53,474 nt of DNA from positions 1 to 53,474 of IMG/VR virus record IMGVR_UViG_3300050139_000115; one strand, 5' to 3'. Both the position numbers and the translations under genes were made by a program. Within the stretch, counting starts at the first letter, position 1. Every line of letters starts with the position of its first letter. Positions 19,011 to 47,469 of the stretch are shown piece by piece. Below the pieces are notes generated by a model, which was not told where the DNA came from, did no database searches, and saw nothing but the letters and a program-made list of their open reading frames with translations. Source of the stretch: a virus.

Positions 19011-19264
19011 TCGGCGGCGAGCTTCGGGACGAGTGTCTGCGGCTGTTGGTCCTGATCTTCAGGGCCAACGTCGCCACGGACAAACGCGCGCACCTGACTC
19101 AGTTGATCGAACGCCAGCAAGTGGTCGAGTTGCTTCTCCGCCTGTCGCGGGATAAGCGCTTCATTTCGACCGGGCAGTATGCGCGGGCGGTTCAGTTGAC
19201 CGAGAGCATCGGCAAGCAAGCCAATGGATGGCGCAAAGCTTCCGCATCGTCGCCTGCCACATGA
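18908..19264 (+). CDS. avd: DGR1 accessory variability protein (Avd-like four-helix bundle)
   Basis: A 118-residue, all-helical basic protein (LPIYKVAYNLADLAVDLIKN, DECLRLLVLIFRANVATDKR, GQYARAVQLTESIGKQANGW). Length, composition and position between the targets and the template repeat fit Avd, which binds the reverse transcriptase and the template RNA. There is no clear ribosome site; the ATG lies inside the end of target gene 2, so translation may be coupled. It differs clearly from the Avd of the second DGR. Confidence 0.85.
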   Translation: MAIHTQLPIYKVAYNLADLAVDLIKNMPREVKAVIGGELRDECLRLLVLIFRANVATDKRAHLTQLIERQQVVELLLRLSRDKRFISTGQYARAVQLTESIGKQANGWRKASASSPAT

Positions 19265-19331
19265 AGGTCAAGGCTTTCATGTCCGTGCGATATTCAATCT
19301 GGTCGTGCCGCTTCCTCACGAGGGAACCGAT

Positions 19332-26204: not shown

Positions 26205-26210
26205 TCTTTT

Positions 26211-27047
26211 CTACCGAACAAAAGTCTGCCCGCTCGGTGTCTGCCCGCTCGGTGTCTGCCCGCTCGGTGTCTGCCCGCTCGGTGTCTGCCCGCTCGGTGT
26301 CTGCCCGCTCGGTGTCTGCAAGTAGAGCACCTGGGGAGCTTGAGCCACTGGTGCCGTCGATTTGGTTTCCGCGAAGATCAGCGCGACCACGGCCACGGCG
26401 ACGCCGGCAACCGCCAGGATTGCGGCCCAGGTCGAGCCGATGCCTTCGCTCTTGCCTTGGTTCGCCGACTGCGCTTTGACCATGTTGCGCATTTCGGTCA
26501 TCAGCTCGGCCATCGCCGGGTCGGTGTAGGCGCTTCGCCCCTGTCCGGTGTACGAGGATTTTTCCAAGGTGGCGATGCGTTCGGTGAACTGCGCAGTCAG
26601 CGCGTTTTGCGCCTTCGCCATCGTGTCGGCGGTGGTTGCCACCAGGGCGCGCAGCGCGTCCGCCGATGCGGCCACCTGATTCGCCAGCACCGAGGCTTGC
26701 TGCCCGGCGCGCTCACTTGCCACCGCCACCGCCGCTACGTCCACGGCGCGGATGGCGTCGATGCGCTTCGCCTCCGCGAGCGCCAGTTTTTCATGGAAGT
26801 CAGCGACCAGCTTTTGCTGTTCGTCAATGCGCCTGCTTTCCGCCCCCCTCAAATCGTCGAGCCTCTTGCTCTCGGCCACAGAACGAAGCAAGGCGGTATC
26901 TTTCAAGTTGCCCATCACCGCGTCGTAATACTTATTGTCCGACTTGCGCAGGTCACGCTGCGCTTTGACCGCAGCCTTGACCAGCGCCATGACGTTCTCG
27001 GTCGGGTCAACGGCGCCTTTGCTATTTCTTTGTTGATCGACGGTCAT
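26211..27047 (-). CDS. Coiled-coil membrane protein with six TPSGQ repeats
   Basis: The 278-residue protein has a long helical region (AESKRLDDLRGAESRRIDEQ, LALAEAKRIDAIRAVDVAAV), a membrane segment (WAAILAVAGVAVAVVALIF) and a C-terminus of six TPSGQ units. GGAG lies 8 bases before the ATG. Coiled coil plus transmembrane anchor suggests a lysis or envelope-associated role; the repeat tail would be outside the inner membrane. Family unknown. Confidence 0.7.
   Translation of the reverse strand: MTVDQQRNSKGAVDPTENVMALVKAAVKAQRDLRKSDNKYYDAVMGNLKDTALLRSVAESKRLDDLRGAESRRIDEQQKLVADFHEKLALAEAKRIDAIRAVDVAAVAVASERAGQQASVLANQVAASADALRALVATTADTMAKAQNALTAQFTERIATLEKSSYTGQGRSAYTDPAMAELMTEMRNMVKAQSANQGKSEGIGSTWAAILAVAGVAVAVVALIFAETKSTAPVAQAPQVLYLQTPSGQTPSGQTPSGQTPSGQTPSGQTPSGQTFVR
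26224..26319 (-). repeat. Tandem 15-bp repeats, six full copies
   Basis: Six exact copies of a 15-base unit (GTCTGCCCGCTCGGT on the + strand) plus a 6-base remainder. They encode TPSGQ units in frame at the end of the coiled-coil protein. Exact identity means recent expansion and possible copy-number variation without frameshift. Confidence 0.95.
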
Positions 27048-27595: not shown

Positions 27596-28053
27596 CACAG
27601 ACCCAGCTTCGCTTTCTCTGCGCGCCCCCACGTGCGCACGGCCTCGACGTGCGCGCCGAAAGCCACCAAAGCATCACGCTCCCCCGCTTCGAACGTGTAC
27701 GCCCCAAGCGCTACGCCCACACCAATCCGAGCAAAATACTGCTCATCTTCGAGGCTATAGCGCGCTCGAATCTGCTCCTGCATCCGGGACGAGATCAGTG
27801 CGACATGCGGGCTCGCCGCCTTGATCGCGTCGCGCAGCGCGTCGGTGAGCGTCACCGGCGCCACGTTTGCCGCGATCTCTTGCGGCTGCTCGGCAGGCAG
27901 TGCGGCCCCGTCTGGCAGGGCGACATAGGTAATGCCCTCGACGGTGGCCAGTTCGGTGCCCAGACGCTGGCGCGTCGTTGGGTCTTCAGGCAGCCGCAGC
28001 TCGCGGGTGATCTGCTCGTCGATATGCTTGCGGTAGCCAATGATGGAGGGCAT
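27595..28053 (-). CDS. Hypothetical protein behind DGR2
   Basis: The 152-residue protein starts at ATG 28053 with AAGGAG 7 bases upstream (MPSIIGYRKHIDEQITRELR). The C-terminal region ARIGVGVALGAYTFEAGERD, then AFGAHVEAVRTWGRAEKAKL is conserved-looking. It overlaps the 3' end of the DGR2 reverse transcriptase gene by 68 bases. The place after tail-fibre genes suggests a tail or fibre accessory role. Confidence 0.6.
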   Translation of the reverse strand: MPSIIGYRKHIDEQITRELRLPEDPTTRQRLGTELATVEGITYVALPDGAALPAEQPQEIAANVAPVTLTDALRDAIKAASPHVALISSRMQEQIRARYSLEDEQYFARIGVGVALGAYTFEAGERDALVAFGAHVEAVRTWGRAEKAKLGL

Positions 28054-29002
28054 GGTTGTGCTCCTTGAGATAACGCAGCATGTGCTGCAATGAATGGGTG
28101 CGGCGCGCATGGCCGAGCACTGAAACCGTGCTCTCCATTTCGCCGCGCTTGACGGACTGGCGGAAGGTATAAAGGCTATGCCGGCGCACGAAGCGCTTGC
28201 TGATCCAGGTGCGGTAGCCGACGAAGTTCATGCCGCGCTTCACCCGCGCCAGGGTAGACTTCGACAGCTCGAGATGAAGGCCGGCGATGAACTCCACGAT
28301 CCGCGCCTTGCAGATCAGTAGTGCCTCGCGCGTCAAACCGAACAGCACGAAGTCGTCCACATAGCGGCAGTAGCGCTTGATGTGCAGAACGCGCTTGATG
28401 AAGTGATCGAGCGGGTTGAGGTAGATCAGTGCGTAGAGTTGCGAAAGCAGGTTGCCGATTGGAATGCCAACCGGCTCGCCGTGGTCCGAGAACAGCATCA
28501 TCAGATCCACGAATCGCCGGTCCTTGATCTTTCGTTCGATCAGGCCGCGAAGAATCTTCCGATCGATACGATAGAAGAACTTTCGGATGTCGAGCTTCAA
28601 CGTGTAGCTGCCAGGCGGGCAGGCTTGCAGAGCCTCCTGCGCGTAGTCAGCGGCCTTGTGCGTGCCATAACCGACGCGGCATGCAAACGATTGATCGATG
28701 AAGCCGCGGTCGAAGATCGGCCCGGCCACGGCATAGATGGCATGCTGCACCACCAGGTCGCGGAAGGCGGGAGCATAGATGCGCCGCGGCTTCGGTTCGT
28801 AGACCATGAAACTATAGTACGGGCGCGGCTTGTAGCTGCCGTCTGCCAGCTCTCGGTGCAGTGCGTCCATATTGGCGGCCAGGCGCTTCTCGAAGTTGAA
28901 ACACGCACGCTTGCCGTGCTTATGTCTCGCCGCGGCGTGGAAGGCCAACCGCAGCGCCTCCGGTGTGAAGGCGGATTCGAACAGATAACCGAAGCGCTTC
29001 AT
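27986..29002 (-). CDS. DGR2 reverse transcriptase
   Basis: The 338-residue enzyme shows YSFMVYEPKPRRIYAPAFRD, LKLDIRKFFYRID, VGIPIGNLLSQLYALIYLNP and RYCRYVDDFVLFG. YVDD is the catalytic motif and the IGNLLSQ motif 4 is of DGR type. GGAG is 8 bases before ATG 29002. The sequence is clearly divergent from the DGR1 enzyme (different motif surroundings and length), so the two DGRs are not recent copies of each other. Confidence 0.95.
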   Translation of the reverse strand: MKRFGYLFESAFTPEALRLAFHAAARHKHGKRACFNFEKRLAANMDALHRELADGSYKPRPYYSFMVYEPKPRRIYAPAFRDLVVQHAIYAVAGPIFDRGFIDQSFACRVGYGTHKAADYAQEALQACPPGSYTLKLDIRKFFYRIDRKILRGLIERKIKDRRFVDLMMLFSDHGEPVGIPIGNLLSQLYALIYLNPLDHFIKRVLHIKRYCRYVDDFVLFGLTREALLICKARIVEFIAGLHLELSKSTLARVKRGMNFVGYRTWISKRFVRRHSLYTFRQSVKRGEMESTVSVLGHARRTHSLQHMLRYLKEHNHALHHWLPQAYRRADHPRAAAA

Positions 29003-29159
29003 TACCGGAACTCCGCTTGACGTTCGAGACGGCATGCCGCCCTACCAGAAAAGCGCCGGCACACCGATTTCGCCGTGACTATCATGGCGCTAATCACGCG
29101 CCGGAAAGCGTCTCCCTTGATTCCACTTCGACCCTGCAGCCCGTGAGGTGAAATCGAGT

Positions 29160-29274
29160 CCGCGCGAAACCCCACGTTGTTGTTGGAGTTGCTACGCACA
29201 TTGTTGAGATTGAAATACCAGACCCCGGCGTTCGACGAGTTGTTCCAGTTGCCGCCAGAGATCGGGCACATGTC
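29160..29274 (-). repeat. DGR2 template repeat (TR)
   Basis: 115 bases aligned without gaps to the variable repeat at 29715-29829. It contains eleven AAY codons in the frame of the target. It lies between avd (overlap 2 bases) and the reverse transcriptase, the order known from Bordetella phage BPP-1. Confidence 0.95.
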
Positions 29275-29700: not shown

Positions 29701-31050
29701 TCAGAGATACAAGGCCGCGCGAAACCCCACGCTGTAGGCGGCGTTGCCACGCACATCGTAGAGACTGAAATCCCAGACCCCGGCGCTCGACGAGGCGTTC
29801 CAGTAGCCGCCAGAGAGCGGGCACATGTCTGCCACACGATAATCGTAGAAGGCATCATTGCCGAAAGGGTTGGTGCCACCAACCCCGCCAACCAGGGGGC
29901 CACCAACCCCGGTCCATTGCCAGGCGAGTCCGCTGGTGGCCTCGCTGAACACCTGCGCGGCATTGCCGTAAAGCTTGAGACTGGCACTGGCAAGCGCCGC
30001 ACCGTAGGTCGCGCCGAGATCGTCGTAGTTCGCCGCCAGTTGCCCGGCCGTGCCCCAGAGATCGAGCGCGCCACCAACGCCGGCCGTCATGTCCTTCATG
30101 CGCGCCGAAGTCTTGAGCACGTAGTAATGCGTCGCGGCCGTCTCAGAAACCAGGCCAAGATCGATGTTGTAGATGAGGCCATTCAAATCGGCGACGCCGC
30201 TGTTCTGGCCGTTGTGTGTTGTCCGACTGAACAGGTTCGCCGATCCCGTCTTTCCGCAGTTGGTAGCCGTGCCATCGTTCAGGTAGAGGATGGCGGCGTC
30301 CTGCGCATCGCCCAGGGCGTTGTTGTTGCAGCCCTTGGGGAAGTTATTCACGGCGTGATACCAGGCGCAGTAGGTGGTGGTGCTCGACGCCTGGCCGTGG
30401 GCGTAGGCCAAGAGCGCCAGCGCCGCGCGGATGAAGCGAGACGAGCAGAAGAAGTTCGCGCCGCGCGTCTTGGCCGCCGCGATCGCGCCGTAGTAGGCAT
30501 CGATGGGCGCTCCGGTGAGGGAGGCAAAGTTCGTGTTGGCGATGCCTCCACGCAGGGCACTTGCCAGCGGGATGCCGTTTTTCAGGCTGGACGCAATGCC
30601 GCCGTTGCGACTCGGCACGTATTTGTCCACGAAGAAACCGGCCTGAATCGCGCCACCATCGTAGAACGCCCGGTGCAGCGCATAGCCCGCGGCGTTGGCC
30701 GTGGCCACGTCGACGTAAGCGGAAAATGGCTGGATCGCCACCTGGTTCAACGTGACGCCATTCGCGCCGGTCCCCCATTTGTAATAGAAGGCGGGAATCC
30801 AGACCATGACCGAGCCATCGGAATACTGGTAATTCCCGTAGGCGTCGGCGAGTGGATTCTGGTAGTCGGACAAACCGCCCATGCCGGCTGGCAGCGGGCC
30901 GGGACAGACGCCGACACCGAATCCAGCCTGGCCGGCAATGCCGATGTTGTTGATGCCACCCAGGGCGCCCGAGCCGATGACGATGCCGGTGGGGAACTGC
31001 ACCGGCTGGCCGTCCTTGCCGGTAATTTTGCGAAGATTGAGGTTGCTCAC
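29701..31050 (-). CDS. DGR2 target: tail protein with variable C-type-lectin end
   Basis: The 449-residue protein starts at GTG 31050, overlapping the upstream stop (GTGA). Its C-terminal half has the pattern of DGR-diversified phage receptor-binding proteins; the last 43 residues (from MCPLSGGYWNAS to GFRAALYL) come from the variable repeat. It lies between tail genes and lysis genes, so a distal tail fibre or receptor-binding role is most likely. Glycine/alanine-rich regions in the middle suit a fibre. Confidence 0.85.
   Translation of the reverse strand: MSNLNLRKITGKDGQPVQFPTGIVIGSGALGGINNIGIAGQAGFGVGVCPGPLPAGMGGLSDYQNPLADAYGNYQYSDGSVMVWIPAFYYKWGTGANGVTLNQVAIQPFSAYVDVATANAAGYALHRAFYDGGAIQAGFFVDKYVPSRNGGIASSLKNGIPLASALRGGIANTNFASLTGAPIDAYYGAIAAAKTRGANFFCSSRFIRAALALLAYAHGQASSTTTYCAWYHAVNNFPKGCNNNALGDAQDAAILYLNDGTATNCGKTGSANLFSRTTHNGQNSGVADLNGLIYNIDLGLVSETAATHYYVLKTSARMKDMTAGVGGALDLWGTAGQLAANYDDLGATYGAALASASLKLYGNAAQVFSEATSGLAWQWTGVGGPLVGGVGGTNPFGNDAFYDYRVADMCPLSGGYWNASSSAGVWDFSLYDVRGNAAYSVGFRAALYL
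29715..29829 (-). repeat. DGR2 variable repeat (VR)
   Basis: 115 bases aligned to the template at 29160-29274 with 15 differences: 13 at template A, and two T-to-G changes (TAT to GAT and TCC to GCC). The repeat ends GTTTCGCGCGG; beyond it template and VR differ. Confidence 0.95.
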
Positions 31051-31484
31051 AGAACGCTCCAATTTGAGTTGTCGGCTAGGGTCACTTCTACGCCGTCGCC
31101 AATGGTTAAAGGGCCGGCCGAATAGGCGTTATAGCCGGATGGTATGGTTACGTCGGCAAGTAAAGTCGTAGGGTTCATCCGCACCGCCGGATTGAGATCC
31201 GGATTCGCGGCAAGGGCCGCAGTCCATGCAGCCTGAGCAGCGACGCTGGCAGCGGCAGCGGCGATGGCATTGGCGGTCGCATTGGCAAGTCCGGCATTCA
31301 ATGCGGACTGCGCTAGGACGCCGGCAGATGTGGCCAATGACTGCTTGGCGTTCACATCGACTTGCAAGGCGTTCGCTTCGGTGACGAACGTCGGTAGTGC
31401 AGCCAAGAATGTATCTGCACGCGCCGCAAACGTGGTTGGGTCGATCGTGCTGGGCGGAGTCGGCAGCGGAGTGATACCAGGCAT
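31047..31484 (-). CDS. Tail fibre-associated protein
   Basis: The 145-residue protein has an alanine-rich helical region (ALNAGLANATANAIAAAAAS) and an end SAGPLTIGDGVEVTLADNSN, WSVL, a beta pattern common at the ends of phage tail fibre or baseplate proteins. It is coupled to the DGR2 target by GTGA, which suggests the two work together in the distal tail. Confidence 0.6.
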   Translation of the reverse strand: MPGITPLPTPPSTIDPTTFAARADTFLAALPTFVTEANALQVDVNAKQSLATSAGVLAQSALNAGLANATANAIAAAAASVAAQAAWTAALAANPDLNPAVRMNPTTLLADVTIPSGYNAYSAGPLTIGDGVEVTLADNSNWSVL

Positions 31485-32695: not shown

Positions 32696-35600
32696 GCCGC
32701 TACCGTTTGCAGCCTCTGACCATCTGGGGTCATGTTGCGAATTAGGTCATAGTGTTTCTTGACGCTCTGCGCGGTGACGTTCGATACCGCAACCAGCTTA
32801 TCAATTCGACCATTCAGCGTCTTGATCTCCTCTAGCAGATCATCGTTCGCGGCGCTCCCTCCGCCCCGCCAATTTGACGCCTGGGACGGGGTGAGTACAG
32901 CCTCGCCCTTGTGCGCACGCATCAGGTAGTCGTCGCTTGGCACATAGCGGAGGCCCAGCGCGTGGCCGGGAATCGCGGCGATGATCGCTTTCTGTGCCGC
33001 GATGTTGTCGGCGATAGCCTGCAACTGTGCCGCCTGTCCGTAGGTCTGGTCGTAGACGCCGCCCGCCTTCCAGAACTCCGCTTTGAATCCTGCGAAGTCA
33101 GAGTTGGTATACCCTCCGAGCAGTTGATACTGGCTCGTATTCTGAAGAATGCCCGCCGCGTCGACGTAAAGCTGTGCAGCCGCGCCACCCGAAGCGGTTT
33201 GCTGATTCACCCCATACGCGGAAACGAGTGAGTTGATACCGGTGATGCCCACGTTAACCGAAGCGACGAGTGCCGACTGCTGCGCAACAGATGCCGAGAG
33301 CGCGGCTTGTGCGTCGCTGAGGCGCTTTGCGTCAGCCGCAACCGTCGCAGCCTTTGCTGCTGCATCATCGGCTGCGGTCTTCGCTACCGCGGCTGCGTCT
33401 GCATTCTGCAAGACGCTTTGCTTGGTCAGATCAACCAAAGTCTGGAGTAATGTCGCTGTCGTCTTCGAAGCAAGGGCAATTCCATCGAGACTGTCGCTCT
33501 GAATCGTGGATCCAGAGATCAACGACGTGAGCATCGCGCTGGAATAGGTCGCGTTGAGTAGGGTTATGCTCTTGACCGCATCTTGAATTGTGTTCCCCGT
33601 CAGTACCAACTTGCTTTGCGCATCCGTCAACGCATTGCCCGCCAGAATCGCGGTCACCTGTTGCAAAGTGAGCGCGTTCCCTGCGGTAAGCTGCGCAAGC
33701 TGATTCGCGGTAATCGTGTTGCCCGCCAAAATCGCGGTCACTTGTTGTGTGGTGAGCGCGTTGCCAGAAGAAAGGGCCGCAAGCTGCTGCGCGGTCAACG
33801 TGTTCCCGGTCAGAATCGCGAGCATTTGTTCGGAGGTCAGCGCGTTCCCGGCAGAGAGTTGAGTGAGTTGCTGCGCGGTGATGGTATTCCCCGTCAGGAT
33901 TGCGACAACCTGTTGCGCGTTAAGCGTATTGCCCGCGGTGATCTGCGCAATCTGACTTTGCGTGAGCACGTTCCCGGCGAGAATCGCAAACACCTGTTGC
34001 GAGGTCATTGTGTTACCCGCAACGAGCTGGGTAAGCTGCTGCGCGGTGATCAAATTTCCAGCCAAGATTGCAAGCACCTGCTGCGTGCTCGTCGCGTTCC
34101 CTGCGGAAAGTTGCGTTACCTGCTCAGCGGTCAGGCTATTCCCAGCCATGATCGCGACAATTTGATTTGCGGTCAGCGCATTGCCCGCGGCAACTTGCGC
34201 AACCTGGTCAGAGGTCAACGTGTTGCCCGACATGATCTGGACAATCTGCGAAGCGAGCAGCGCGTTGCCCACGCCAATCTGCGCAACCTGATCAACCGTC
34301 AGCGCGTTGCCAGCATTAAGCTGCGCGATCTGAGCTTGCGTTAGCGCGTTCCCCGCGATGAGTTCGACCAACTGCGATGCGGTGATGCTGTTGCCATTGG
34401 TAATCTGCGTTACCTGCTCAGCGGTCAGGCTATTTCCGGCGATGATCTGCCCCGTCTGATCTTGTATGAACAAATTCCCGTCAATCACCTGCACCGTCTG
34501 CCCCAGAAGCGCGGCATGGATTGTGTCAAGCAAAGCGAGTTGGCCTTTGAGAATTTCCGTGTTCGGGTCGACCTTGCCCAGCTCCGCCTTAACCTGCTCC
34601 AGCACCGCGACCTGGGTTTGGAGCAAGGCAGCGTTGTGTTCTTCCCAATTTATCGACGCAACCGCAGCGGCGTTCGCTTTCTGCAACATGTCCACCACTT
34701 TGCCTTGATCTCGCGCATAGGCGTTGGCGCTGGTAGCGGTGGCCATGCTCGCAGCGAGGTAGTCGTCGGCGGCTTTCGGCAATGCCTGCAGCGCCGAAAC
34801 ATCCCCGCCCATGGCTGCGCTGAAAGTTTGATTCAGAACCTCCGACGCGCTCGACTTCCCCGCACCGATGATTTTGGTAATCTCTGCGGTGAGGTTGGTG
34901 CTGATCTGGCGATAGGTATCCGCCAGTCGGTGCGCCGTGTTCGCTGCGCTACTGCTCGCCTGTATCTCGGCGCTCACCGCTGCGGTTGCTGCCTGCTGCG
35001 CCGTGGTGATCTGCTGTGCAAGGGTCTGCACCGCATTCGCGGCGCCGGTGGCAGAGGCCGCGAGATCCTGTGCGGCATAGATCTGTAGCTGCAATGCGGC
35101 TAATGATGGGTCAAGGGCCTTGAGTTCATCCTCGCGCTTCGCGGCGAGAGCGCCGATCGCGTTGCCTTGGAGTTCCATCAGTTGGATCTCCATCTGCCGG
35201 CGCTGATTGTCGAGCGCGAGCTTGGCGGCGATCTGCGCGTTGGTGATTCGAACGAAAGTCTGCGTGAGCGACTCACCGCTTTGCTGCAACGCGGCGATAT
35301 TCGGGATCAGGGTAGAAGCAATGGTATCTGACGTCTTCGCGAGCACATCGATCATGTCCTGCTGGACGCCCTTGCCCGAGTTCGCGGCTTGCACCGTGAT
35401 TGCAGCGAGCCCGGAGGTATCCATATTCAGCGCCTTCGCTTGCGCTTCCATGCTCGCGAACACCTCTGCGACCGACTTGTTAAATGCGGTGAGCGAATCC
35501 GCGGGTATTGGATCGACGCGAGATCCGCCCCAGTAGTCATTCGGTGGAGTGCCGATCATCGTGGTCACGCCCCCACCCGAGAGACCCCCGCGTGAAACAG

Positions 35601-39477: not shown

Positions 39478-40050
39478 TTAGACTGCGGCGACGGTGACCG
39501 GCGCTTTGCAAAATTGCAGGTTCGCCGTCCGCTCTTTCGCAGCGCCTTCCGATGCCGCCGAGGCTTTCCACGAGCAGACCAGGCAGTCGAAATAGGTGAT
39601 CTCACCATCCGGGAACGTGGCTTTGATGCTGTAATGATTCGGCGAGTCATTGGCTGCTGCGCAGATCACCTGGCCGGCATCGGCCGGCATGTCGCCGACC
39701 ACCATCGGGCCGCCGCCGTAGTTCGCGGTGCCCTTAGTTTTTTCAATGGGACCGGCAATGGGTTTCCACTCGTTCACCGCGCGATCGGCGCCGAACTCGG
39801 GAAACGACTTCACCTTGCCGATGGTGGTGTAGACGATCGAGGTGAGACCGTAACCGGCGGCGTCATAGGTTGTGGGCAGCGTTGCGCTGATGGCGTAGAC
39901 GGTATCTGTGTACGACTCGACGGCTGTGTGGGCTGCCTGGAGCAGGAAGCCGCTTCGTTGCATGTAGTTGAACAGCTTGTCATTCGCCAGTTCAAACAGG
40001 GAAAACACCGCCGAAGCCAGCGGCCGAACAAGTGATTTAATGCTTTTCAT
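39478..40050 (-). CDS. Major tail tube protein
   Basis: The 190-residue protein has the tail-tube pattern AISATLPTTYDAAGYGLTSI, GKVKSFPEFGADRAVNEWKP, PDGEITYFDCLVCSWKASAA. It follows the tail terminator group and precedes the chaperone pair. GAGGA lies 10 bases before ATG 40050. The first 30 residues are extra compared with usual tube proteins; MQRSGF at residue 30 is an alternative start. Confidence 0.8.
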   Translation of the reverse strand: MKSIKSLVRPLASAVFSLFELANDKLFNYMQRSGFLLQAAHTAVESYTDTVYAISATLPTTYDAAGYGLTSIVYTTIGKVKSFPEFGADRAVNEWKPIAGPIEKTKGTANYGGGPMVVGDMPADAGQVICAAANDSPNHYSIKATFPDGEITYFDCLVCSWKASAASEGAAKERTANLQFCKAPVTVAAV

Positions 40051-40076
40051 GATTTCATCCTCTCGACGGTATTTCA

Positions 40077-40103
40077 AAGAAAAAGCCCGCGACTTAGCGG
40101 GCT
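40077..40103 (-). terminator. Terminator before the tail tube gene
   Basis: On the - strand the 7-bp stem AGCCCGC/GCGGGCT with a 6-base loop is followed by TTTTC TTT. It separates the genes upstream from the highly expressed tail tube gene. Confidence 0.75.
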
Positions 40104-40124: not shown

Positions 40125-40370
40125 TTATCGGCGCAATCGATTCACGATGCGCGCGATGATGCCGGGATCAGGCCGTAAGATCGCGATGTCCTGCCCGTTG
40201 TCTAAAATCACGCATTCGAAGTCGTCAAATACTTCATTCAGCATCGCGGCGGCTTCGCCACGCTGCTTGTCGGTCAGCCGAAACGGACAGCGGAATAACA
40301 CGACATCGCCCGCGCGCAAGCTGACCACGGCAGCGGATTCGAAGACGGACAGTGGATTTTCAGCGTCCAT
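40125..40370 (-). CDS. Hypothetical protein
   Basis: The 81-residue product (ESAAVVSLRAGDVVLFRCPF, RLTDKQRGEAAAMLNEVFDD, CVILDNGQDIAILRPD) is a compact alpha/beta protein. Its ATG overlaps the end of the glycosyltransferase-like gene by 11 bases. Role unknown; similar small proteins with a DVVLF-x-n-LT pattern are known in phages without function. Confidence 0.6.
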   Translation of the reverse strand: MDAENPLSVFESAAVVSLRAGDVVLFRCPFRLTDKQRGEAAAMLNEVFDDFECVILDNGQDIAILRPDPGIIARIVNRLRR

Positions 40371-40887
40371 CAACTTTGCCCGACTCAACACGCTCGACCT
40401 CGATCCCAGTCGCGCGCAACTCGGCGGTAATCTGCTCCAGCCCTTCGGTGAAGCCGTAAAACCCAAACTCGCCGTGCGTCTTGTCGTACGCTTGCGGGTC
40501 GAAACCAAGCAGCACGATCTTGACGGCGCCGGCAAGGGCGGCAATGCGGATCGCGGCGAGCGCGTTGTTGCGGATCTCGATCGTGTGGCCGGGCTCGATC
40601 GTGACGGTCTCGTACATCATTCCTGGATACAACGCGTCGATGTCACACTCAACTCCACAGATGCGCAGGCCCTTGAAACCGGCTGCGGCCTCCCAAAACG
40701 GATGATGCGGATCGAGCGCAACGAACATGTCGGCCCAGGGCGCAAACTGCACGGCGCGATTAACCGCGATGGTCTTGTAGCCGCGGGCGCCGTCGGCAAC
40801 AGCTTGGCTCATGCTTGGGGCATTGCCGAGGATGGCGACGGTCTCGCCTTTCCATAGATCGTTCGGGACAGTCCACGGTTTCGTCAT
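40360..40887 (-). CDS. DUF115/sialyltransferase-like protein
   Basis: GETVAILGNAPSMSQAVADG, then YKTIAVNRAVQFAPWADMFV, ALDPHHPFWEAA and AALAGAVKIVLLGFDPQAYD match the nucleotide-binding fold of DUF115/MptE and GT29-like proteins found in phages. It lies between the tail terminator and tail tube genes. It might transfer a sugar to a virion protein. A similar domain forms the N-terminal half of the protein at 44379. Confidence 0.6.
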   Translation of the reverse strand: MTKPWTVPNDLWKGETVAILGNAPSMSQAVADGARGYKTIAVNRAVQFAPWADMFVALDPHHPFWEAAAGFKGLRICGVECDIDALYPGMMYETVTIEPGHTIEIRNNALAAIRIAALAGAVKIVLLGFDPQAYDKTHGEFGFYGFTEGLEQITAELRATGIEVERVESGKVDGR

Positions 40888-40901
40888 GTTCGACTCCTAA
40901 T

Positions 40902-41333
40902 TTATGTGCCTACCCAGCGCACTAAAAAATCCTGCGACTTCGTCCACAAATCGGTAACCTGGTCATGCAGACTTGGCCCGAGCGTATCGGGGCTTATGCT
41001 GTCAACGACAATCCCGTTGACCGTCGCCCGTTGGCTAGGGCACGCCGCCACGACGAGTTTAAGCAGTGCCTTGCATCCGGCTTTGCCGTCGCCCTGCGGC
41101 GTTCCATACTGCCCTTTGCACAAGACGGCGACCTGCACACGCTCCGTGTACAGGTTTAGCCCATCGCTAATCTTTATCGTTTTGTAGCGCACGGTATCAA
41201 TGTCATCCACAACAATGAATGGCATCACCGCGCCCAGGGCTGGGTCGTTGTCTTGAATGCGCGCAGCGGGCACGATAGCGAGGACCGGGCCGTTGTTGGC
41301 CAGGAGGTAGCGGATTACCGCAGTGCCGCTCAT
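40902..41333 (-). CDS. Tail terminator-like protein (DUF3168-like)
   Basis: The 143-residue protein MSGTAVIRYLLANNGPVLAI, RIQDNDPALGAVMPFIVVDD, YTERVQVAVLCKGQYGTPQG, GCKALLKLVVAACPSQR has the order of gpU/DUF3168 tail completion proteins, with a beta hairpin and helix pairs. Location between gp10-like and tail tube genes supports this. Confidence 0.75.
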   Translation of the reverse strand: MSGTAVIRYLLANNGPVLAIVPAARIQDNDPALGAVMPFIVVDDIDTVRYKTIKISDGLNLYTERVQVAVLCKGQYGTPQGDGKAGCKALLKLVVAACPSQRATVNGIVVDSISPDTLGPSLHDQVTDLWTKSQDFLVRWVGT

Positions 41334-41689
41334 TCCGGATCACCAACGACACCGTTGGTCAGCCATCCGTGATACCGACCGACGAAGTTGATCGACGGGT
41401 GCATGGTGATATTCGGCGGCACGCCGGTCACAGTCCAGCAGTCGTAGTGGCCTTTCTCTGCGCTGAACCCCTGGCCGTCGATGAGAAAATAGTTCCTGCC
41501 GGGCAACATCACCACAAGTGGCTTGCGGTTTGCGTTCTGCGCGAAATATTGCGCGGTCAGGTGACGCTCTTTCAGTTCCTCGGCTGGCACGTCGAGAAAC
41601 CACATATCGCCGATCTCGCGCTTGGAAACGTCGACGTTGCCGTCCTCGTTGAGTTCCGGCTTTTCGATCAAGCGGCAGGGCCAGCTCAT
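41330..41689 (-). CDS. DUF6527-like (WHG) protein 2
   Basis: The 119-residue protein has GDMWFLDVPAEELKERHLTA, PLVVMLPGRNYFLIDGQGFS, WTVTGVPPNITMHPSINFVG and ends RYHGWLTNGVVGDPE. The PxITMxPSI and YHGWL-x-G pattern is that of DUF6527 as I recall it. Coupled to the next gene by an overlap. Role in virion unknown. Confidence 0.65.
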   Translation of the reverse strand: MSWPCRLIEKPELNEDGNVDVSKREIGDMWFLDVPAEELKERHLTAQYFAQNANRKPLVVMLPGRNYFLIDGQGFSAEKGHYDCWTVTGVPPNITMHPSINFVGRYHGWLTNGVVGDPE

Positions 41690-42000
41690 ATTTTTACCCA
41701 GATACCCTTCGTCAGATGCCCGTGCCAACCGTCGCTCTCCGATCCCGGGCCGGCCATGTCGCCCAGCGACGCCGTGATCGTCAGCGTGCCGTCCGGTTCC
41801 TCGGTGAACACATGTGGCGGCGAGACGACGTGCTGCACACTACGCGCTCGCGCTGGCGCACCGGGATCGCGCGCGTTCGGCTTTAGGAAAAATACGGCAG
41901 GTTTGTCGCCCGTGTAGCCCGTAACCGGGCCGCAGTAGTCACCAGGTTGCTCCGGCGTCGGGTGCTGGCCGGGGATCAGGGGAAGGCGCCGACCGATCAT
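41686..42000 (-). CDS. DUF6527-like (WHG) protein 3
   Basis: The 104-residue protein has EEPDGTLTITASLGDMAGPG, SDGWHGHLTKGIWVKI at the end. Proline-rich first half. ATG 42000 overlaps the upstream stop (ATGA). Second of three consecutive genes with the same C-terminal motif. Confidence 0.6.
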   Translation of the reverse strand: MIGRRLPLIPGQHPTPEQPGDYCGPVTGYTGDKPAVFFLKPNARDPGAPARARSVQHVVSPPHVFTEEPDGTLTITASLGDMAGPGSESDGWHGHLTKGIWVKI

Positions 42001-42239
42001 TCTTTTCTCCAAATGCCGCGCTCTAGGAACCCATGCCAGCTCGGGCGCCCCGTTCCTTGTTCAATCAGTATTGACGGGCTTACAGTGATCGTGCCGTCGT
42101 CGTGCTCAGTGACGGTGTGATTTTCGAGCGACCCGAGATGCACGTTCTCATCAGGCGGACGCGCACGCCATACGCCATTAGCATCCTTGCCGTAATCGCC
42201 CGGCCCGTATGAATTCGTGTAGACGCGCCGACCTTGCAT
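41997..42239 (-). CDS. DUF6527-like (WHG) protein 4
   Basis: The 80-residue protein has LENHTVTEHDDGTITVSPSI, then SWHGFLERGIWRKE, the clearest form of the motif. GTG 42245, which overlaps the upstream stop, is an alternative start; ATG 42239 has AAGGGGA 10 bases upstream. Placed directly after the gp10-like gene. Confidence 0.65.
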   Translation of the reverse strand: MQGRRVYTNSYGPGDYGKDANGVWRARPPDENVHLGSLENHTVTEHDDGTITVSPSILIEQGTGRPSWHGFLERGIWRKE

Positions 42240-42241
42240 GG

Positions 42242-42814
42242 TCACTCATCCCCTTCGATCAGTACCGCCGAAGTGTCGATGCCTTCCTTTGTCGCAAGGC
42301 GCTGCTTTATATACTCCGCCGCGGCAATCACAGCGTTCTGCGCTTGGCTATCCAGTGCAGGTCGTAAGAACGGGTGTGCGACAAGGGGCGGGTGCATCAC
42401 GGTTTTGCGGAAGAGCCCACCAATGGAAAGGAACCCGCCCTTCTTGAACGCCGCAATCGGATAAGGAGTTGTGGTGTGGTGTTTCCAAAACCCTTCGATC
42501 ATGTGCGCATAGAACACGTCGGCGCCGGTCTTTTTATTTTTTCCGCCGACCGTAACCATTGAGGTGACCCATTGGCCCCTGACGCGCGTCCCGATGCGGA
42601 TGCTATCTCTCAGCGCCCCCATGTAGCCTCCGTACAGCCGGACATTTTCTTTGTTCGGCGGCCCGACCGGGCAATTGGCAACGGCTGCATCCCTGATTGG
42701 TTTGATGCCTGCGCGCAACGCCCCGCGCATGATGTTTTTTTCCATCTTGACGGGAAATTCATCGAGGAATTTCTGGAGGTCCGAAAGGCCCTTGACGTGG
42801 ATCGTATCGCTCAT
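42242..42814 (-). CDS. HK97 gp10-like head-tail protein
   Basis: The 190-residue protein IHVKGLSDLQKFLDEFPVKM, IMRGALRAGIKPIRDAAVAN, CPVG, ADVFYAHMIEGFWKHH and AHPFLRPALDSQAQNAVIAA follow the HK97 gp10 family (head-tail joining). Order with the neighbours (adaptor, closure, gp10, terminator, tube) is the standard one. Confidence 0.85.
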   Translation of the reverse strand: MSDTIHVKGLSDLQKFLDEFPVKMEKNIMRGALRAGIKPIRDAAVANCPVGPPNKENVRLYGGYMGALRDSIRIGTRVRGQWVTSMVTVGGKNKKTGADVFYAHMIEGFWKHHTTTPYPIAAFKKGGFLSIGGLFRKTVMHPPLVAHPFLRPALDSQAQNAVIAAAEYIKQRLATKEGIDTSAVLIEGDE

Positions 42815-43197
42815 GACGAGTACCGCTCCGCCATCACCTCATTCGACTCCCGATTACCGAACGTCGCAGGCCCAGCGACAATCTGGAATGTCTGATCCGC
42901 CTCGCCGCCGCGGCCGTGCAGGGTGATGCGCATGGCGGAATTCAGATCGTCACGCCACGGATAGATGCGTATGCGGACTTGCTCGCGCGCCGTTGGGAGT
43001 CCCATTTTCACGGCCTCGCTATATGATGGCAGCACGTCTTTCGCATTCGCCCAAAAGCGCACTGCGGTTGGTGGGCTATCATTCGTCGGCACAAGCGGCA
43101 CCCAGGCCACAATCTCCGTTCCGGTATTTGGGTCCAGATCGGGCGGCTCTTTTATTTTCCACACGCTGATCAGCCGGTCGTAGTCTGCGATGCGCAT
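42811..43197 (-). CDS. Head closure protein (SPP1 gp16/HK97 gp7-like)
   Basis: The 128-residue protein ADYDRLISVWKIKEPPDLDP, AWVPLVPTND, VRFWANAKDVLPSYSEAVKM and FQIVAGPATFGNRESNEVMA has the pattern of phage head closure proteins of the Phage_H_T_join type. Overlaps the next gene by 4 bases. Confidence 0.8.
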   Translation of the reverse strand: MRIADYDRLISVWKIKEPPDLDPNTGTEIVAWVPLVPTNDSPPTAVRFWANAKDVLPSYSEAVKMGLPTAREQVRIRIYPWRDDLNSAMRITLHGRGGEADQTFQIVAGPATFGNRESNEVMAERYSS

Positions 43198-43198
43198 T

Positions 43199-43864
43199 TC
43201 ACACCCCGAGGCCTGTCCGGTAATTCCACCACAAGTCATGCACGCGCATCGGTAAAGAGAACGTCTGCGCAGCGCTCACTTCCTCGCGGTTCATGAACAG
43301 CGAGCCGATGACGAGCAGCATTCCGGCCTTAACGAGAAACGGCACAGCAGCCGGCGCCATGCCAGCAACAAACTGCACAATCACAGCGTCGTCCAAACCG
43401 TAGCCACTCCGCCTGAAGTTTTCGCTCTCGCTTGAGGCATTCGAGCCAAAACCTACTGGCCACATATCCATCTCATGGTCGAGCCGGTGATAAACAGCCG
43501 GCCACGTCTGCCCGATCTTCAGCCGCAGCTTCGGCTCGTTAAGGTTTCCGTTCAACTCATACACGGTGTCGGCAAGCGTCTGCCGAGCGCCGGCCGCGTC
43601 CAGATACGTCACACTCACAATCGAAGTCACCGGCGGGAATAGCGGAACACCAAAATTGCGCCCGCGCGCCTCACGTGTCGATACGGCGAATGCGCGCTGG
43701 CAAAACTGTTCGGCCATTTCGCGCGCGGTGCTGATCAGGCGTGTAACGTCGGCGTCGGTCGGGTGCGCCGTCACATCAGCCGGGTCGGCCGTGATCTTCA
43801 GATGGGAATTTGCCTCACCGAGCGTGATCGGTTCCACGATGGTAGTTTCAGAATCTATGCTCAC
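43199..43864 (-). CDS. Head-tail connector/adaptor (phiE125 gp8-like, HK97 gp6-like)
   Basis: The 221-residue protein has ITLGEANSHLKITADPADVT, RLISTAREMAEQFCQRAFAV and a long C-terminal helix (FLVKAGMLLVIGSLFMNREE). This is the gp6-like adaptor fold. GTG 43864 with GGAGG 6 bases upstream and a GTGA overlap is chosen; the next upstream start would overlap the methyltransferase by 25 bases. Confidence 0.8.
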   Translation of the reverse strand: MSIDSETTIVEPITLGEANSHLKITADPADVTAHPTDADVTRLISTAREMAEQFCQRAFAVSTREARGRNFGVPLFPPVTSIVSVTYLDAAGARQTLADTVYELNGNLNEPKLRLKIGQTWPAVYHRLDHEMDMWPVGFGSNASSESENFRRSGYGLDDAVIVQFVAGMAPAAVPFLVKAGMLLVIGSLFMNREEVSAAQTFSLPMRVHDLWWNYRTGLGV

Positions 43865-44391
43865 GGGGCCCTCCAGTAGCATTGACACGGTGCCGATTCG
43901 ATCACATGCAGCCCCGCCGCTTCAATCGCCTTTGCCACACCAGCGCAGTTCTTCCAATGCCAATCATCGAACACCACCAGGCCGCCTGACACCATGCGCG
44001 GGCGCAACCATACGATTGCGTCCGCCGTACTTTTCTCCAGATCCATGTCCACATGGGCGAAAGCCACCTGATCGTGCAGCCCTTCGGCGGATTGAGGGAA
44101 CAACCCGGCGATCAGGGTGACGTTCCCCGGCATCCCGGCCTGGACGGTGGTCAGAGTCGTGTCGCCGAATTCGCCCGGCTTGTGGAAGTCGATCGCCCGC
44201 CATGATTCGGCCGGCATGCCGGCGAAGGTGTCGAACCCGTAACAGGACCGCCGAGGCGAGGCCTGGGCTAGGGCTTTCAGAGTTCCACCCTGGTACACCC
44301 CAAGCTCCACGATAGCGCCCTGCAGGCCCTCCACCGTAGCCAGCAGCCGCAACAAGGCCGCGGACTTGGCCGGCGTCATCAGTGTTTGCAT
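43861..44391 (-). CDS. TylF-like O-methyltransferase
   Basis: The 176-residue protein has IVELGVYQGGTLKALAQASP as SAM-binding motif I, CYGFDTFAGMP, HVDMDLEKSTADAIVWLRPR and GLVVFDDWHW. This order is that of TylF/MycF sugar O-methyltransferases. Between the glycosyltransferase and the connector gene, it could methylate a sugar put on a virion protein. Its ATG overlaps the glycosyltransferase stop by 13 bases. Confidence 0.75.
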   Translation of the reverse strand: MQTLMTPAKSAALLRLLATVEGLQGAIVELGVYQGGTLKALAQASPRRSCYGFDTFAGMPAESWRAIDFHKPGEFGDTTLTTVQAGMPGNVTLIAGLFPQSAEGLHDQVAFAHVDMDLEKSTADAIVWLRPRMVSGGLVVFDDWHWKNCAGVAKAIEAAGLHVIESAPCQCYWRAP

Positions 44392-45923
44392 GTTTCCTCG
44401 ATAAATTTTGCAATCCGCTCCCGCGCCGCCGGCACATCGATCGCCTTGTCGTGGTTGCAACCATGCGACCAACACGCGCACGGCTTCACCGGCTCGATGG
44501 CGCACCAGGGCGAATACCGCGCACCGGCTGAAAACGACCGCGCATCCTCGAATCCGCCGAAAATAGCAATGACTGGCGTGCTGACCGCCTGCGCCAACAC
44601 CAGCGCAAAGCCGGGCGAGCAGAACACTAGATTCGCCGCCGCCGTGAGCGCGGCAATCGTCTCAAAATCCAACTCGCCGCGGTGAAACTCGGCGTCGGCC
44701 TTGATCTGCGGGCCGATGAGCCACTCAATTCCGTCCATCAGGTCCGCCAGACTGATCACGAAATACCGATCGCGGATGCCTGCGATCAACGCGTGGCTGG
44801 CTGCCAGGTCGGGGTTACGCGCGACCTTCGCCCGCGCCGAGCCGTTGTTCTGGTCCGAAATTGCGACCGGCGGCCGGTAGATCAGCAGCGGCTTCGTCGG
44901 TTTCAACTTCGCCAGCAGCGCGTCGGCCTTCGCTTTCCATTCCGGCTTGATTGGCATGCGGAAGTCGCCAACCGGAACGCCGCATACATGGGCCATCACG
45001 CCGAGTACGGAGCCGCAGTCCTTCACACCACGCGGCATCATGGACAGGTAACCGTTTTCAATCGTCCGCGCGCCTCGCGGTGGCTGCGTGGCGCCGTAGA
45101 GTGCTGCCGCGCGCACCTCATTCTTCGCCATCCAGCAAATCCGCGACTTTTTCGGCACTAGGTGCAGACGCGGCATATCCCAAAACACCTGCGGCCAGGA
45201 AGTCGTCAGCCAAACCTCGTTCGACTTCATCAACTCGCGCACAAGCGCCCGTTCGTGCAGGTTGTCTCCGAGGCCGTGCATGCCATGCAGGAGCAGCGCC
45301 TGCTTACCCGGCGCCAGCGCTTCCTCGATCGGCAGCCGCTCAAAACACGTGATCGCCGTGCGCCTGGTAGCGTTGACGACCTCGACTCCGTGCGAGCGCA
45401 GATCCGCACCGAGCTGCACCATGCGCCGGCCCCACTCCGGCATCGTCCCCAGGTTTGGCAAATTCCCTTCGTGGTCGCCGTGGTGATGGCTCTCACCCTT
45501 CGGCCCGCGCTGCATGTCGTAGCCGAGCAGGATGATCCGCGCGGCACCCCACATATAGGCGAGGTTAATCGCCTGGTAGCCGCTGTTCAGGCCGGTATGG
45601 ATGCGGCCTGGCTTCGTCCCCAGCCCAGGCTCGTCAACCGCCTCTACGTGGTTGATGACGCCTCGGAGCCGGTCGGCGCACGTCCAGCATTCCCCGGTGA
45701 AGTTCCGCTCGACTTCCTCGCTGTACACTGTCCACCAGCGCATGTCTGCCGCGTAGCACGCGTCGGCCCATAGCGCCTTGCGAAATGTCGTGCAGACTGC
45801 GATTACGCGCCGCTCTTGCGGTGCTTTCCGGCGCCAGGCTTTGACAAGAGCGACTTCCCCATCGCTAAGGCTTGGTCCACTGGCGAGGCAGACGACGGTG
45901 GAACCTTTCCATCGTCCGGCGCT
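44379..45923 (-). CDS. Two-domain glycosyltransferase-like protein (DUF115-like + GT9-like), in -1 frame
   Basis: First domain: STVVCLASGPSLSDGEVALV, RRVIAVCTTFRKALWADACY and NSGYQAINLAYMWGAARIIL (DUF115/GT29-like). Second domain: LLLHGMHGLGDNLHERALVR and LVFCSPGFALVLAQAVSTPV, AIFGG (GT9/heptosyltransferase-like). No ATG, GTG or TTG lies in this frame between 46283 and about 45746, yet the conserved start is near 45900. The frame joins the upstream 106-residue gene by a -1 shift at GGGAAAA (45929-45923). Joined product about 581 residues. An indel error is the alternative. Confidence 0.7.
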   Translation of the reverse strand, partial: SAGRWKGSTVVCLASGPSLSDGEVALVKAWRRKAPQERRVIAVCTTFRKALWADACYAADMRWWTVYSEEVERNFTGECWTCADRLRGVINHVEAVDEPGLGTKPGRIHTGLNSGYQAINLAYMWGAARIILLGYDMQRGPKGESHHHGDHEGNLPNLGTMPEWGRRMVQLGADLRSHGVEVVNATRRTAITCFERLPIEEALAPGKQALLLHGMHGLGDNLHERALVRELMKSNEVWLTTSWPQVFWDMPRLHLVPKKSRICWMAKNEVRAAALYGATQPPRGARTIENGYLSMMPRGVKDCGSVLGVMAHVCGVPVGDFRMPIKPEWKAKADALLAKLKPTKPLLIYRPPVAISDQNNGSARAKVARNPDLAASHALIAGIRDRYFVISLADLMDGIEWLIGPQIKADAEFHRGELDFETIAALTAAANLVFCSPGFALVLAQAVSTPVIAIFGGFEDARSFSAGARYSPWCAIEPVKPCACWSHGCNHDKAIDVPAARERIAKFIEETCKH

Positions 45924-46123
45924 TTTCCCGCTTCGGCCACGATAGCTGCGGCACCGCGCACGCTCAGCGCCTGATCGACGCGGCGCGCTATGAGCTTCAC
46001 GCGCACGAGGCCGGCGCGCTCCAAGTCGCGCGCAAGGCCCTCTTCCATCAGCATCGGCCGGCCTTCGTCCGCGTTGATGTGGCCGTGGACAAAGGAGGTC
46101 AACGGCACTGCTTCGACTTGCAT
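45803..46123 (-). CDS. Capsid-adjacent conserved protein (zero frame)
   Basis: The 106-residue protein MQVEAVPLTSFVHGHINADE, GRPMLMEEGLARDLERAGLV, RVKLIARRV is of a kind often found directly after the major capsid gene; a decoration or connector-related role is possible. GGAGAAAAGATA precedes the ATG. It ends 120 bases after the slippery heptamer at residue 66-67, so the short form lacks the glycosyltransferase part. Confidence 0.65.
   Translation of the reverse strand: MQVEAVPLTSFVHGHINADEGRPMLMEEGLARDLERAGLVRVKLIARRVDQALSVRGAAAIVAEAGKAPDDGKVPPSSASPVDQALAMGKSLLSKPGAGKHRKSGA
45894..45929 (-). other. Candidate -1 frameshift signal: G GGA AAA plus hairpin
   Basis: In the zero frame codons 65-67 read GCG GGA AAA, giving G GGA AAA. 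After a 6-base spacer (GCGCCG) comes a stem GACGATGG/CCACCGTC (7 of 8 pairs) with a 7-base loop. Heptamer, frame and spacing all fit a programmed -1 shift into the glycosyltransferase frame. Confidence 0.6.
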
Positions 46124-46182: not shown

Positions 46183-47469
46183 TTACGTCGCCGGCAGGTC
46201 AGTATTCTTGATGAAACTTTCCGGCCGATACACCGCGAGTCCCAGTCTCTCTTCGTTGCGCACCGAAACCATGTTGCGCACAAAGTTGTCCTGATCTTCG
46301 CTCGATATCACGACGTTCGAATCCTCCCGGTCGAACACCTGCGCGCCAAGCTTGAACGCGCCGACAAGCGCCGTGTCCACCGTCATCGCCGGAGTATCCA
46401 CTACCGGCCGCCCCCACAAAGCAGGTTGCGCCAGCGATTGCGGATTCGCGAAGATGTAGGCGCCGATATCGTTCTTCGTCAACTCGATCGCCGCCCAGTC
46501 CGACGGGTGCATCACGATACCGGTCGACGGAAATAGCGCGAGTTCTGCCTGCAACAGCATCAGGCGAATCACGTCGATCTTGGTCGCTTTCGCAATCGCG
46601 ATCGGTGCGCTAAACGCAGTTGCCTGCGTATAGATGCCGTTCAGGTTGTTCCCGACACCGGAGCCCTTCAGCAATTGCGTTTCTTCTTTGAATTGCAGGC
46701 CGTAGCGGAGCCGTTGGTCGATCATCGATTGCAGTTGCGCAAAGTCATCGAGGATCTGCTTCGATGCCTTGATCCAGTGCGCGACCGTGACGACAGCCGA
46801 CTGCATGAGTTCGTAGGTGATGTCCGATTCCGGCTTGAGCGTCGTTTCCGAAACGGTCGCGGCGTTGTTGGTAAACCCAGTTTCCTTCACGTACTGGATC
46901 AGGTTCGATCCGGTACGACCAGGGCTGATCAGGTCGCGCACCGTCATACGCCGCTGCGGAATGCCGATGATGCCAGGCTGAAAGTCCGGCGCCACCCCCG
47001 TGGTCGTCGTGTTCGTTGTCGGGATGCTGGTGAGCGCCGCCTTGACCGGCAGCACGTAACCGGACTGCGCGCTCTTCATGCCGCCAGCCCCGATCCACGC
47101 CTTGAATCCGTCGTCCGTAACGAGCATTTCCCCGAGCGTCTGCGCCTGCGGCTTTTCCTCGGACCCGCGCCGCGCCGCCTTCTGCTCCACCTCGAGCAGC
47201 CGCGCCTGCAGCTCGCCCTGCTTGACCAGCATTTCGTCGACCTTCGGCTTGTCGGCCGCGTACATGTCGCCGTATTTCTTCGCCTCGGCCAGAGCCTTTT
47301 CGCCGGCCTCTTTAACCTGGTCGCCGATCTTGTCCAGCGCGGCCTTGATTTCTTTCGGGTCCATGTCGTACAAAACCATGCCGACGCGCCCCATGTACCC
47401 GGTCAACGCGCGGTGGAGTGATTCCCCGAGCGCTACCGCCACGGCAACAGCCATTACTTTCAGTTTCAT
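46183..47469 (-). CDS. Major capsid protein, HK97 gp5-like
   Basis: The 428-residue protein has a charged coiled-coil delta domain (about 37-105; MDPKEIKAALDKIGDQVKEA) and an HK97 fold part: VKETGFTNNAATVSETTLKP, WIKASKQILDDFAQLQSMID and NPQSLAQPALWGRPVVDTPA. The delta domain should be cut off by the protease encoded upstream. The hydrophobic first 20 residues are unusual for a capsid protein. Confidence 0.95.
   Translation of the reverse strand: MKLKVMAVAVAVALGESLHRALTGYMGRVGMVLYDMDPKEIKAALDKIGDQVKEAGEKALAEAKKYGDMYAADKPKVDEMLVKQGELQARLLEVEQKAARRGSEEKPQAQTLGEMLVTDDGFKAWIGAGGMKSAQSGYVLPVKAALTSIPTTNTTTTGVAPDFQPGIIGIPQRRMTVRDLISPGRTGSNLIQYVKETGFTNNAATVSETTLKPESDITYELMQSAVVTVAHWIKASKQILDDFAQLQSMIDQRLRYGLQFKEETQLLKGSGVGNNLNGIYTQATAFSAPIAIAKATKIDVIRLMLLQAELALFPSTGIVMHPSDWAAIELTKNDIGAYIFANPQSLAQPALWGRPVVDTPAMTVDTALVGAFKLGAQVFDREDSNVVISSEDQDNFVRNMVSVRNEERLGLAVYRPESFIKNTDLPAT

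Follow-up and report, generated by a model that had tools for sequence, protein, structure and literature searches.

How does a phage translate a glycosyltransferase whose reading frame has no start codon? This question is raised by a block of minus-strand genes in the IMG/VR virus record IMGVR_UViG_3300050139_000115, the whole of which (53,474 bases) is the window of this study. The enzyme frame codes for a DUF115-like and a GT9-type glycosyltransferase domain and overlaps a small gene located directly after the major capsid protein gene. A preliminary description of the sequence had placed the edge of the enzyme gene at 45923, where there is no start codon and which would be the first codon read after a slip; it mentions neither the separate small gene (46123-45803) nor the frameshift. 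We consider a -1 programmed frameshift from the small gene into the enzyme frame very highly probable from the sequence, and a frameshift fusion protein as its product is strongly implied. The best explanation of the locus as a whole, in which we have fair confidence, is that this fusion of a docking domain and a glycosyltransferase would glycosylate virion proteins. The features concerned are the following.

46183..47469, minus strand: gene for the major capsid protein (HK97 fold family; phrog_10, E=2e-67), directly upstream of the small gene
45803..46123, minus strand: small post-capsid gene with a 106-residue zero-frame product, start ATG at 46123, fold weakly gpFI-like
45923..45929, minus strand: candidate slippery heptamer G_GGA_AAA, read in the small gene's zero frame; a -1 slip leads to the DUF115-GT9 frame, with AGC at 45923 as the next codon
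45309..45923, minus strand: DUF115/Maf/GT42-like glycosyltransferase domain (phrog_4603; fold match; motifs ASGPSL, NSG, LLGYD and H-x-HGDH)
44379..45308, minus strand: GT9-type glycosyltransferase domain (GT-B), which follows the DUF115 domain as an in-frame fusion (fold match; GLGD motif)
43861..44391, minus strand: TylF-like S-adenosylmethionine-dependent O-methyltransferase (PF05711), overlapping the end of the GT9 domain

Entry into the enzyme frame

The DUF115-GT9 region is one open frame ending at 44379. No ATG, GTG, TTG, CTG or ATH codon is present in this frame of the window from 46202, inside the capsid gene, to 45803, past the conserved ASGPSL motif of the enzyme at 45884. The frame overlaps the 106-residue small gene (ATG at 46123, stop at 45803), which in the overlap reads GC[G GGA AAA] GCG, the heptamer occupying 45929-45923. 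Slippage at this point is predicted to yield a protein of 581 residues, 67 of them from the small protein and 514 from the enzyme. A start further upstream within the enzyme frame was ruled out in the window by the missing start codons. The divergence by codon position, calculated for the close relatives of the window, argues against such a start as well, as its pattern changes frame at the slip site: third positions are the most divergent, before the site in the frame of the small gene (.36/.29/.58) and from the site onward in the enzyme frame (.20/.19/.42 in the overlap,.21/.22/.49 beyond it).

Homologous loci were gathered from phage records, IMG/VR and GTDB genomes. The 107 loci read were reduced to 90 non-redundant ones, and the 70 that have no ATG, GTG or TTG within 120 nt were designated frameshift-type; phage D3 is counted outside the 70, since it has a GTG within that distance. 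All 70 carry the capsid gene directly upstream and a small open reading frame (ORF) of at least 60 residues in the -1 arrangement, the +1 arrangement being found in 21 of them. Heptamers of the X_XXY_YYZ type are distributed in the overlaps as 68/10/10 by phase (in phase first), counts which are not fully independent because the 70 loci are mutually related, a dependence partly addressed by motif turnover and a shuffle control. The preference for one phase is also seen with individual motifs in the non-redundant loci (GGGAAAA 21/0/1, CCCTTTN 6/0/0, CCCAAAN 6/0/0). In the shuffle control, an in-phase heptamer was expected in 16.6 +/- 3.4 loci (maximum 28 in 500 zero-frame codon shuffles) and observed in 52 of the 70. 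Seventeen of the 18 loci without a heptamer have an in-phase Z_ZZN tetramer of the kinds that slip in Escherichia coli, mostly C_CCU, C_CCC and U_UUU (classes according to the hierarchy in PMC4066793). A tree of the enzyme domain requires 27 or more changes in the class of the slip motif, whose phase remained the same throughout, so the slip site is not merely inherited.

In the isolates D3, PP9W2, Psp6 and S20, homology to the enzyme begins inside the small post-capsid gene, each time in the -1 arrangement. The same overlap recurs in genomes of Bordetella, Achromobacter, Pseudomonas and Halomonas and in dozens of independent contigs. The slip motif of D3 (NC_002484.2, 5837-5843) is C_CCA_AAG, one of the most efficient in E. 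coli (PMC4066793). Slippage there is predicted to join orf6.5, the small gene, to orf7, the enzyme, with the junction ...VESEIPK-ACGWRVAV.... A natural fusion of the capsid and small genes, considered for one locus (L099), was ruled out, as the long upstream frame there differs from that of the capsid gene.

None of the six D3-group records inspected contains a joined coding sequence; either the annotated enzyme begins only at an internal start codon or the small gene is omitted. For example, the public annotation of D3 orf7 (NC_002484.2, 4331-5046; L003 in our set) starts internally and loses the first conserved motif. This motif of the enzyme may therefore be absent from family profiles and structure libraries that draw on such records. 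We found no previous annotation or paper on this frameshift in the collections searched, whose literature covered few subscription papers, and an earlier description is possible.

In tailed phages, most known cases of frameshifting concern tail chaperones, besides a few capsid variants. The tail chaperone G/GT of lambda and frameshifted head proteins of phages A2, T7 and PSA likewise involve a minor extended product made by slippage in a morphogenesis gene (-1 in lambda G/GT, A2 and T7). The predicted extension differs from these in being an enzyme, and the partner is a post-capsid gene instead of a tail chaperone or a capsid protein. In the present case slippage is predicted to append an enzyme to a protein associated with the head. 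The arrangement is found in at least 70 distinct loci, prophages of Achromobacter, Halomonas and others included, and in Pseudomonas aeruginosa phage D3.

The enzyme domains and the small post-capsid protein

Sequence profiles assign residues 133-324 of the listed DUF115/GT9 ORF to phrog_4603, annotated as "alpha-2,3-sialyltransferase" (E=2.9e-42), and residues 330-579 to phrog_6804 (E=4.6e-23). The match of this protein to the Pfam MptE-like/DUF115 family stays below the cut-off (17.5 vs 34.6 bits), as does that of the second DUF115-like protein encoded in the window. A search of PDB sequences with the enzyme profiles gave nothing significant, and the structural matches came from fold comparison only. 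The AlphaFold model of the window enzyme (mean predicted local distance difference test score, pLDDT, 90.9) splits into two domains. As modelled, the first (residues 1-207) is of the Maf/GT42-like fold, with matches to Maf (5mu5, Z 16.6, root mean square deviation (rmsd) 2.8 over 180 residues), CstII (1ro8, Z 11.7) and archaeal HPPK/MptE (Z 11.6). The second (residues 208-516) is a GT9 domain of the GT-B fold, matching GT9 3tov (Z 19.7), TibC (4rb4, Z 19.6, rmsd 2.7 over 257 residues) and WaaF (Z 18.1).

The first domain resembles Maf (PF01973/DUF115) and the GT42 sialyltransferase CstII in fold and in the GPS motif region, and it has conserved His and Asn motifs that may correspond to theirs. 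Among 33-38 diverse sequences H148 and H153 are invariant, H150 is nearly so, and NSG is conserved. It differs from Maf in lacking the flanking regions, in its score below the Pfam cut-off and in being reached, as predicted, by frameshifting from a phage head gene. Maf enzymes glycosylate flagellin, a self-assembling structural protein.

The second domain has the fold and the GxGD motif of GT9 heptosyltransferases, including the protein O-heptosyltransferases of the TibC type, which add heptose to autotransporter proteins (PMC4358343); the motif, GLGD in the window, is conserved in all fused relatives shown. Unlike TibC, the window enzyme lacks the N-terminal beta-barrel, and its GT9 domain is fused behind a DUF115 domain. 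The iron finger of TibC was looked for and rejected, the cysteine spacing being C-x7-C-x1-C-x4-C in the window and C-x2-C-x15-C-x11-C in TibC (PMC4358343). Both domains are thus close in fold to protein-glycosylating enzymes (Maf, TibC), and to glycolipid enzymes as well.

The TylF-like protein matches PF05711 at 52.8-53.7 bits (cut-off 23, E=2.3e-14). In many relatives neither a GT9 domain nor a methyltransferase was detected nearby by tblastn with the window proteins. Since these two components vary, the pair of small gene and DUF115 domain constitutes the conserved core.

The small protein is predicted to be ordered over about residues 1-44 (AlphaFold pLDDT about 90) and disordered in the remainder, with a basic C-terminus in most relatives. 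Its fold matches among phage proteins are YqbF (2hjq, Z 5.4) and, from the packaging chaperone gpFI of lambda, the C-terminal domain (2lsm, Z 5.0, rmsd 1.4 over 43 residues); unrelated small folds of non-phage proteins match better, up to Z 7.0. With the family profile, lambda gpFI is recovered at E about 0.009-0.02 from a set of 10,766 ORFs, and profile-profile comparison (hhalign) gives E 8.5e-4 with a probability of only 24%. Besides the weak fold match, the likeness to gpFI and YqbF includes the pattern G-x-x-F-x-V-S-x-x-x-A...G-L-x-R and the gene position directly after the capsid gene. The domain is C-terminal in gpFI; in the window protein it is N-terminal and followed by the basic tail. 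For gpFI, binding to the major head protein is presumed (PMC7889075), and for a gpFI relative in TP901-1 frameshifting was proposed to attach it to capsids (PMC4493119). We take it that the small protein probably docks on the head, and we do not count it in the gpFI family, because Pfam Packaging_FI does not match.

Proposed virion glycosylation and its alternatives

We propose that a -1 programmed frameshift at 45929-45923 joins the gpFI-like head-docking domain with its linker (67 residues) to the glycosyltransferase, the 581-residue fusion being a minor product beside the abundant 106-residue one. The docking domain would bring the enzyme to the capsid lattice or to the assembling procapsid. 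There the Maf/GT42-like domain could place the first sugar, probably from a CMP-activated (cytidine monophosphate) donor, on a virion protein, the GT9 domain could extend it, and the TylF-like enzyme could cap the glycan by O-methylation. The slip rate would keep the enzymes few per head, similarly to Gag-Pol in retroviruses. If the frameshift is accepted, virion glycosylation is in our judgement probable; a virion protein as the acceptor, specifically the capsid as the substrate, a CMP-type donor, extension by the GT9 domain and O-methylation are inferred steps. The chances are about even that many HK97-type siphophages use such a Gag-Pol-like -1 frameshift onto a head-docking chaperone domain to place a few enzymes in each procapsid and glycosylate the capsid lattice, an arrangement unannotated even in D3.

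Virion glycosylation as such is biologically plausible, as it is known from mycobacteriophages, whose capsid and tail tube are glycosylated by glycosyltransferases together with an O-methyltransferase (Freeman et al., 2023, as cited in PMC11600133 and PMC11256854). The enzyme set is similar in kind to that proposed here; PMC11600133 and PMC11256854 mention neither a frameshift fusion nor a head-docking domain. The preliminary description had also preferred decoration of the virion over modification of the host surface, arguing from the gene set beside the capsid gene. This preference is upheld, on other and stronger grounds, namely a predicted frameshift partner located after the capsid gene, a docking-like domain in it and modelled folds close to those of protein glycosyltransferases. 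If the capsid is the target, these phages would have a means of directing a modifying enzyme to their own shell. Such a means would matter for virion glycosylation and for the immune recognition of therapeutic phages.

Several observations weigh against this proposal. The window motif G_GGA_AAA is no top slip motif in E. coli (PMC4066793), and one frameshift-type locus (L063) has neither a heptamer nor a tetramer. RNA structure 3' of the slip site is no more stable than in synonymous-codon shuffles, which leaves a general downstream hairpin or pseudoknot unsupported; the window alone shows no excess of structure over dinucleotide shuffles (z 0.26). Long stems are possible in some relatives between the GRW and ASGP codons, i.e., in codons of conserved motifs, and a Shine-Dalgarno-like sequence lies upstream in 12 of 52 loci compared with 3-7 in control intervals. 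Stimulators of either kind are common at -1 frameshift sites, though not obligatory. Some tailed-phage frameshifts lack them (PMC5009743). Upstream of the slip site the enzyme frame contains a GTG in D3 and a TTG in PP9W2. About 20 relatives, including PAJU2, Eowyn and Mulvp2, possibly have a start of their own, and in these three the enzyme is located elsewhere and begins with its own ATG; the docking fusion is thus not essential to the enzyme family. As to docking itself, the gpFI match of the small protein is weak (Z 5.0), and Pfam Packaging_FI (PF14000) matched none of the 43 small-protein members scanned.

The alternative that survives best accepts the frameshift and sees in it a means of setting a low enzyme dose only; the N-terminal domain would have no targeting role, and the substrate of the enzyme would be host surface glycans or a different phage protein. 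Frameshifting does set product ratios in other systems, PAJU2, Eowyn and Mulvp2 manage without the N-terminal domain, and enzymes of lipopolysaccharide synthesis occur in both families concerned (CstII in GT42, WaaC and WaaF in GT9). However, a pure dosage device needs no single partner, and the same post-capsid protein following the capsid gene is found in 70 of 70 loci. The nearest folds, moreover, are those of protein glycosyltransferases (Maf, and TibC tied with GT9 3tov). We regard this alternative as unlikely.

Even less likely, in our estimate, is that the DUF115 domain no longer acts as a glycosyltransferase and is a structural or nucleotide-binding head domain or has a pterin-kinase-like (MptE) activity. 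The fold match to archaeal HPPK/MptE and the retention of DUF115 in the many relatives with no GT9 domain or methyltransferase detected nearby would agree with this reading. Maf is nevertheless the closer fold (Z 16.6 vs 11.6), the His and Asn-Ser-Gly motifs are as constant as expected of an enzyme, and sugar-modifying enzymes often adjoin the gene.

Initiation, independent or coupled, from a non-AUG start that has escaped recognition within the overlap could produce a separate enzyme with no frameshifting at all. It is suggested by the relatives in PAJU2 and Eowyn, which lie elsewhere in the phage genome and have an ATG of their own just before the same motif, and by the in-frame GTG of D3 and TTG of PP9W2. 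Yet no start or near-cognate start (ATG, GTG, TTG, CTG, ATH, ACG) is present in frame between -60 and -6 in 55 of the 70 loci, and in 26 of the 70 none of these codons occurs in the whole open enzyme frame. Such initiation would also leave unexplained why in-phase slippery motifs are about three times more frequent than by chance, and we consider it very improbable. A sequencing or assembly error as the cause of the missing start, conceivable for a contig of an uncultivated virus, has a negligible probability and is refuted for the family, as is chance, by recurrence of the -1 overlap in isolates, bacterial genomes and dozens of metagenome contigs.

The head-tail block and other parts of the window

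The genes flanking the module follow a standard HK97-type order: terminase, portal, protease and capsid, and after the module an adaptor, a gp10-like gene and the tail tube. The remaining features of this block are listed below.

43199..43888, minus strand: head-tail adaptor gene after the module (phrog_442, E=1.6e-15)
40360..40887, minus strand: second, divergent DUF115-like protein in the tail-completion region (phrog_4603, E=3.1e-10), which has an ATG of its own as well as a Shine-Dalgarno-like sequence
39478..40077, minus strand: gene for the major tail (tube) protein (phrog_158, E=7.2e-8), located downstream of the second DUF115-like gene

The DUF115/GT9-like, TylF-like and second DUF115-like genes of the preliminary description were all recovered on the minus strand, near the positions given there and within the head-tail block. 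The location is correct; the wording that they interrupt the standard order is too strong, as the same genes recur there in D3, PP9W2, PAJU2, Psp6 and S20. The enzyme trio (DUF115-like/GT9 protein, methyltransferase and second DUF115-like protein) is seen in Mulvp2 and Eowyn as well. The second DUF115-like gene, which has a start of its own, represents a separate family. In 31 viral contigs members of this family occupy varying slots between the adaptor and the tail tube, a pattern suggestive of mobile cargo in the neck block.

Between this gene and the adaptor, three small tandem genes (41330-42245) share the motif W/Y-H-G-x-L-x-x-G; two of them match DUF6527, with a score just above the cut-off in one case and below it in the other. 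In the tape measure protein, near-repeats of the type GN-x-LT-x-x-Q-V-x-x-I follow one another over a long stretch (33583-34600).

A diversity-generating retroelement (27986-29274 and 29701-31062) includes a reverse transcriptase gene (27986-29035, minus strand) and a template repeat (29157-29274). Its variable repeat (29712-29829) is located at the 3' end of a tail gene, and 14 of the 16 differences between the repeats fall at template adenines. Another reverse transcriptase gene (19224-20666, plus strand, 480 residues, phrog_1423, E=1.3e-115) lies away from the tail genes. Finally, a tandem array of the perfect 15-bp unit GTCTGCCCGCTCGGT occupies 26209-26328 at the end of a minus-strand ORF.

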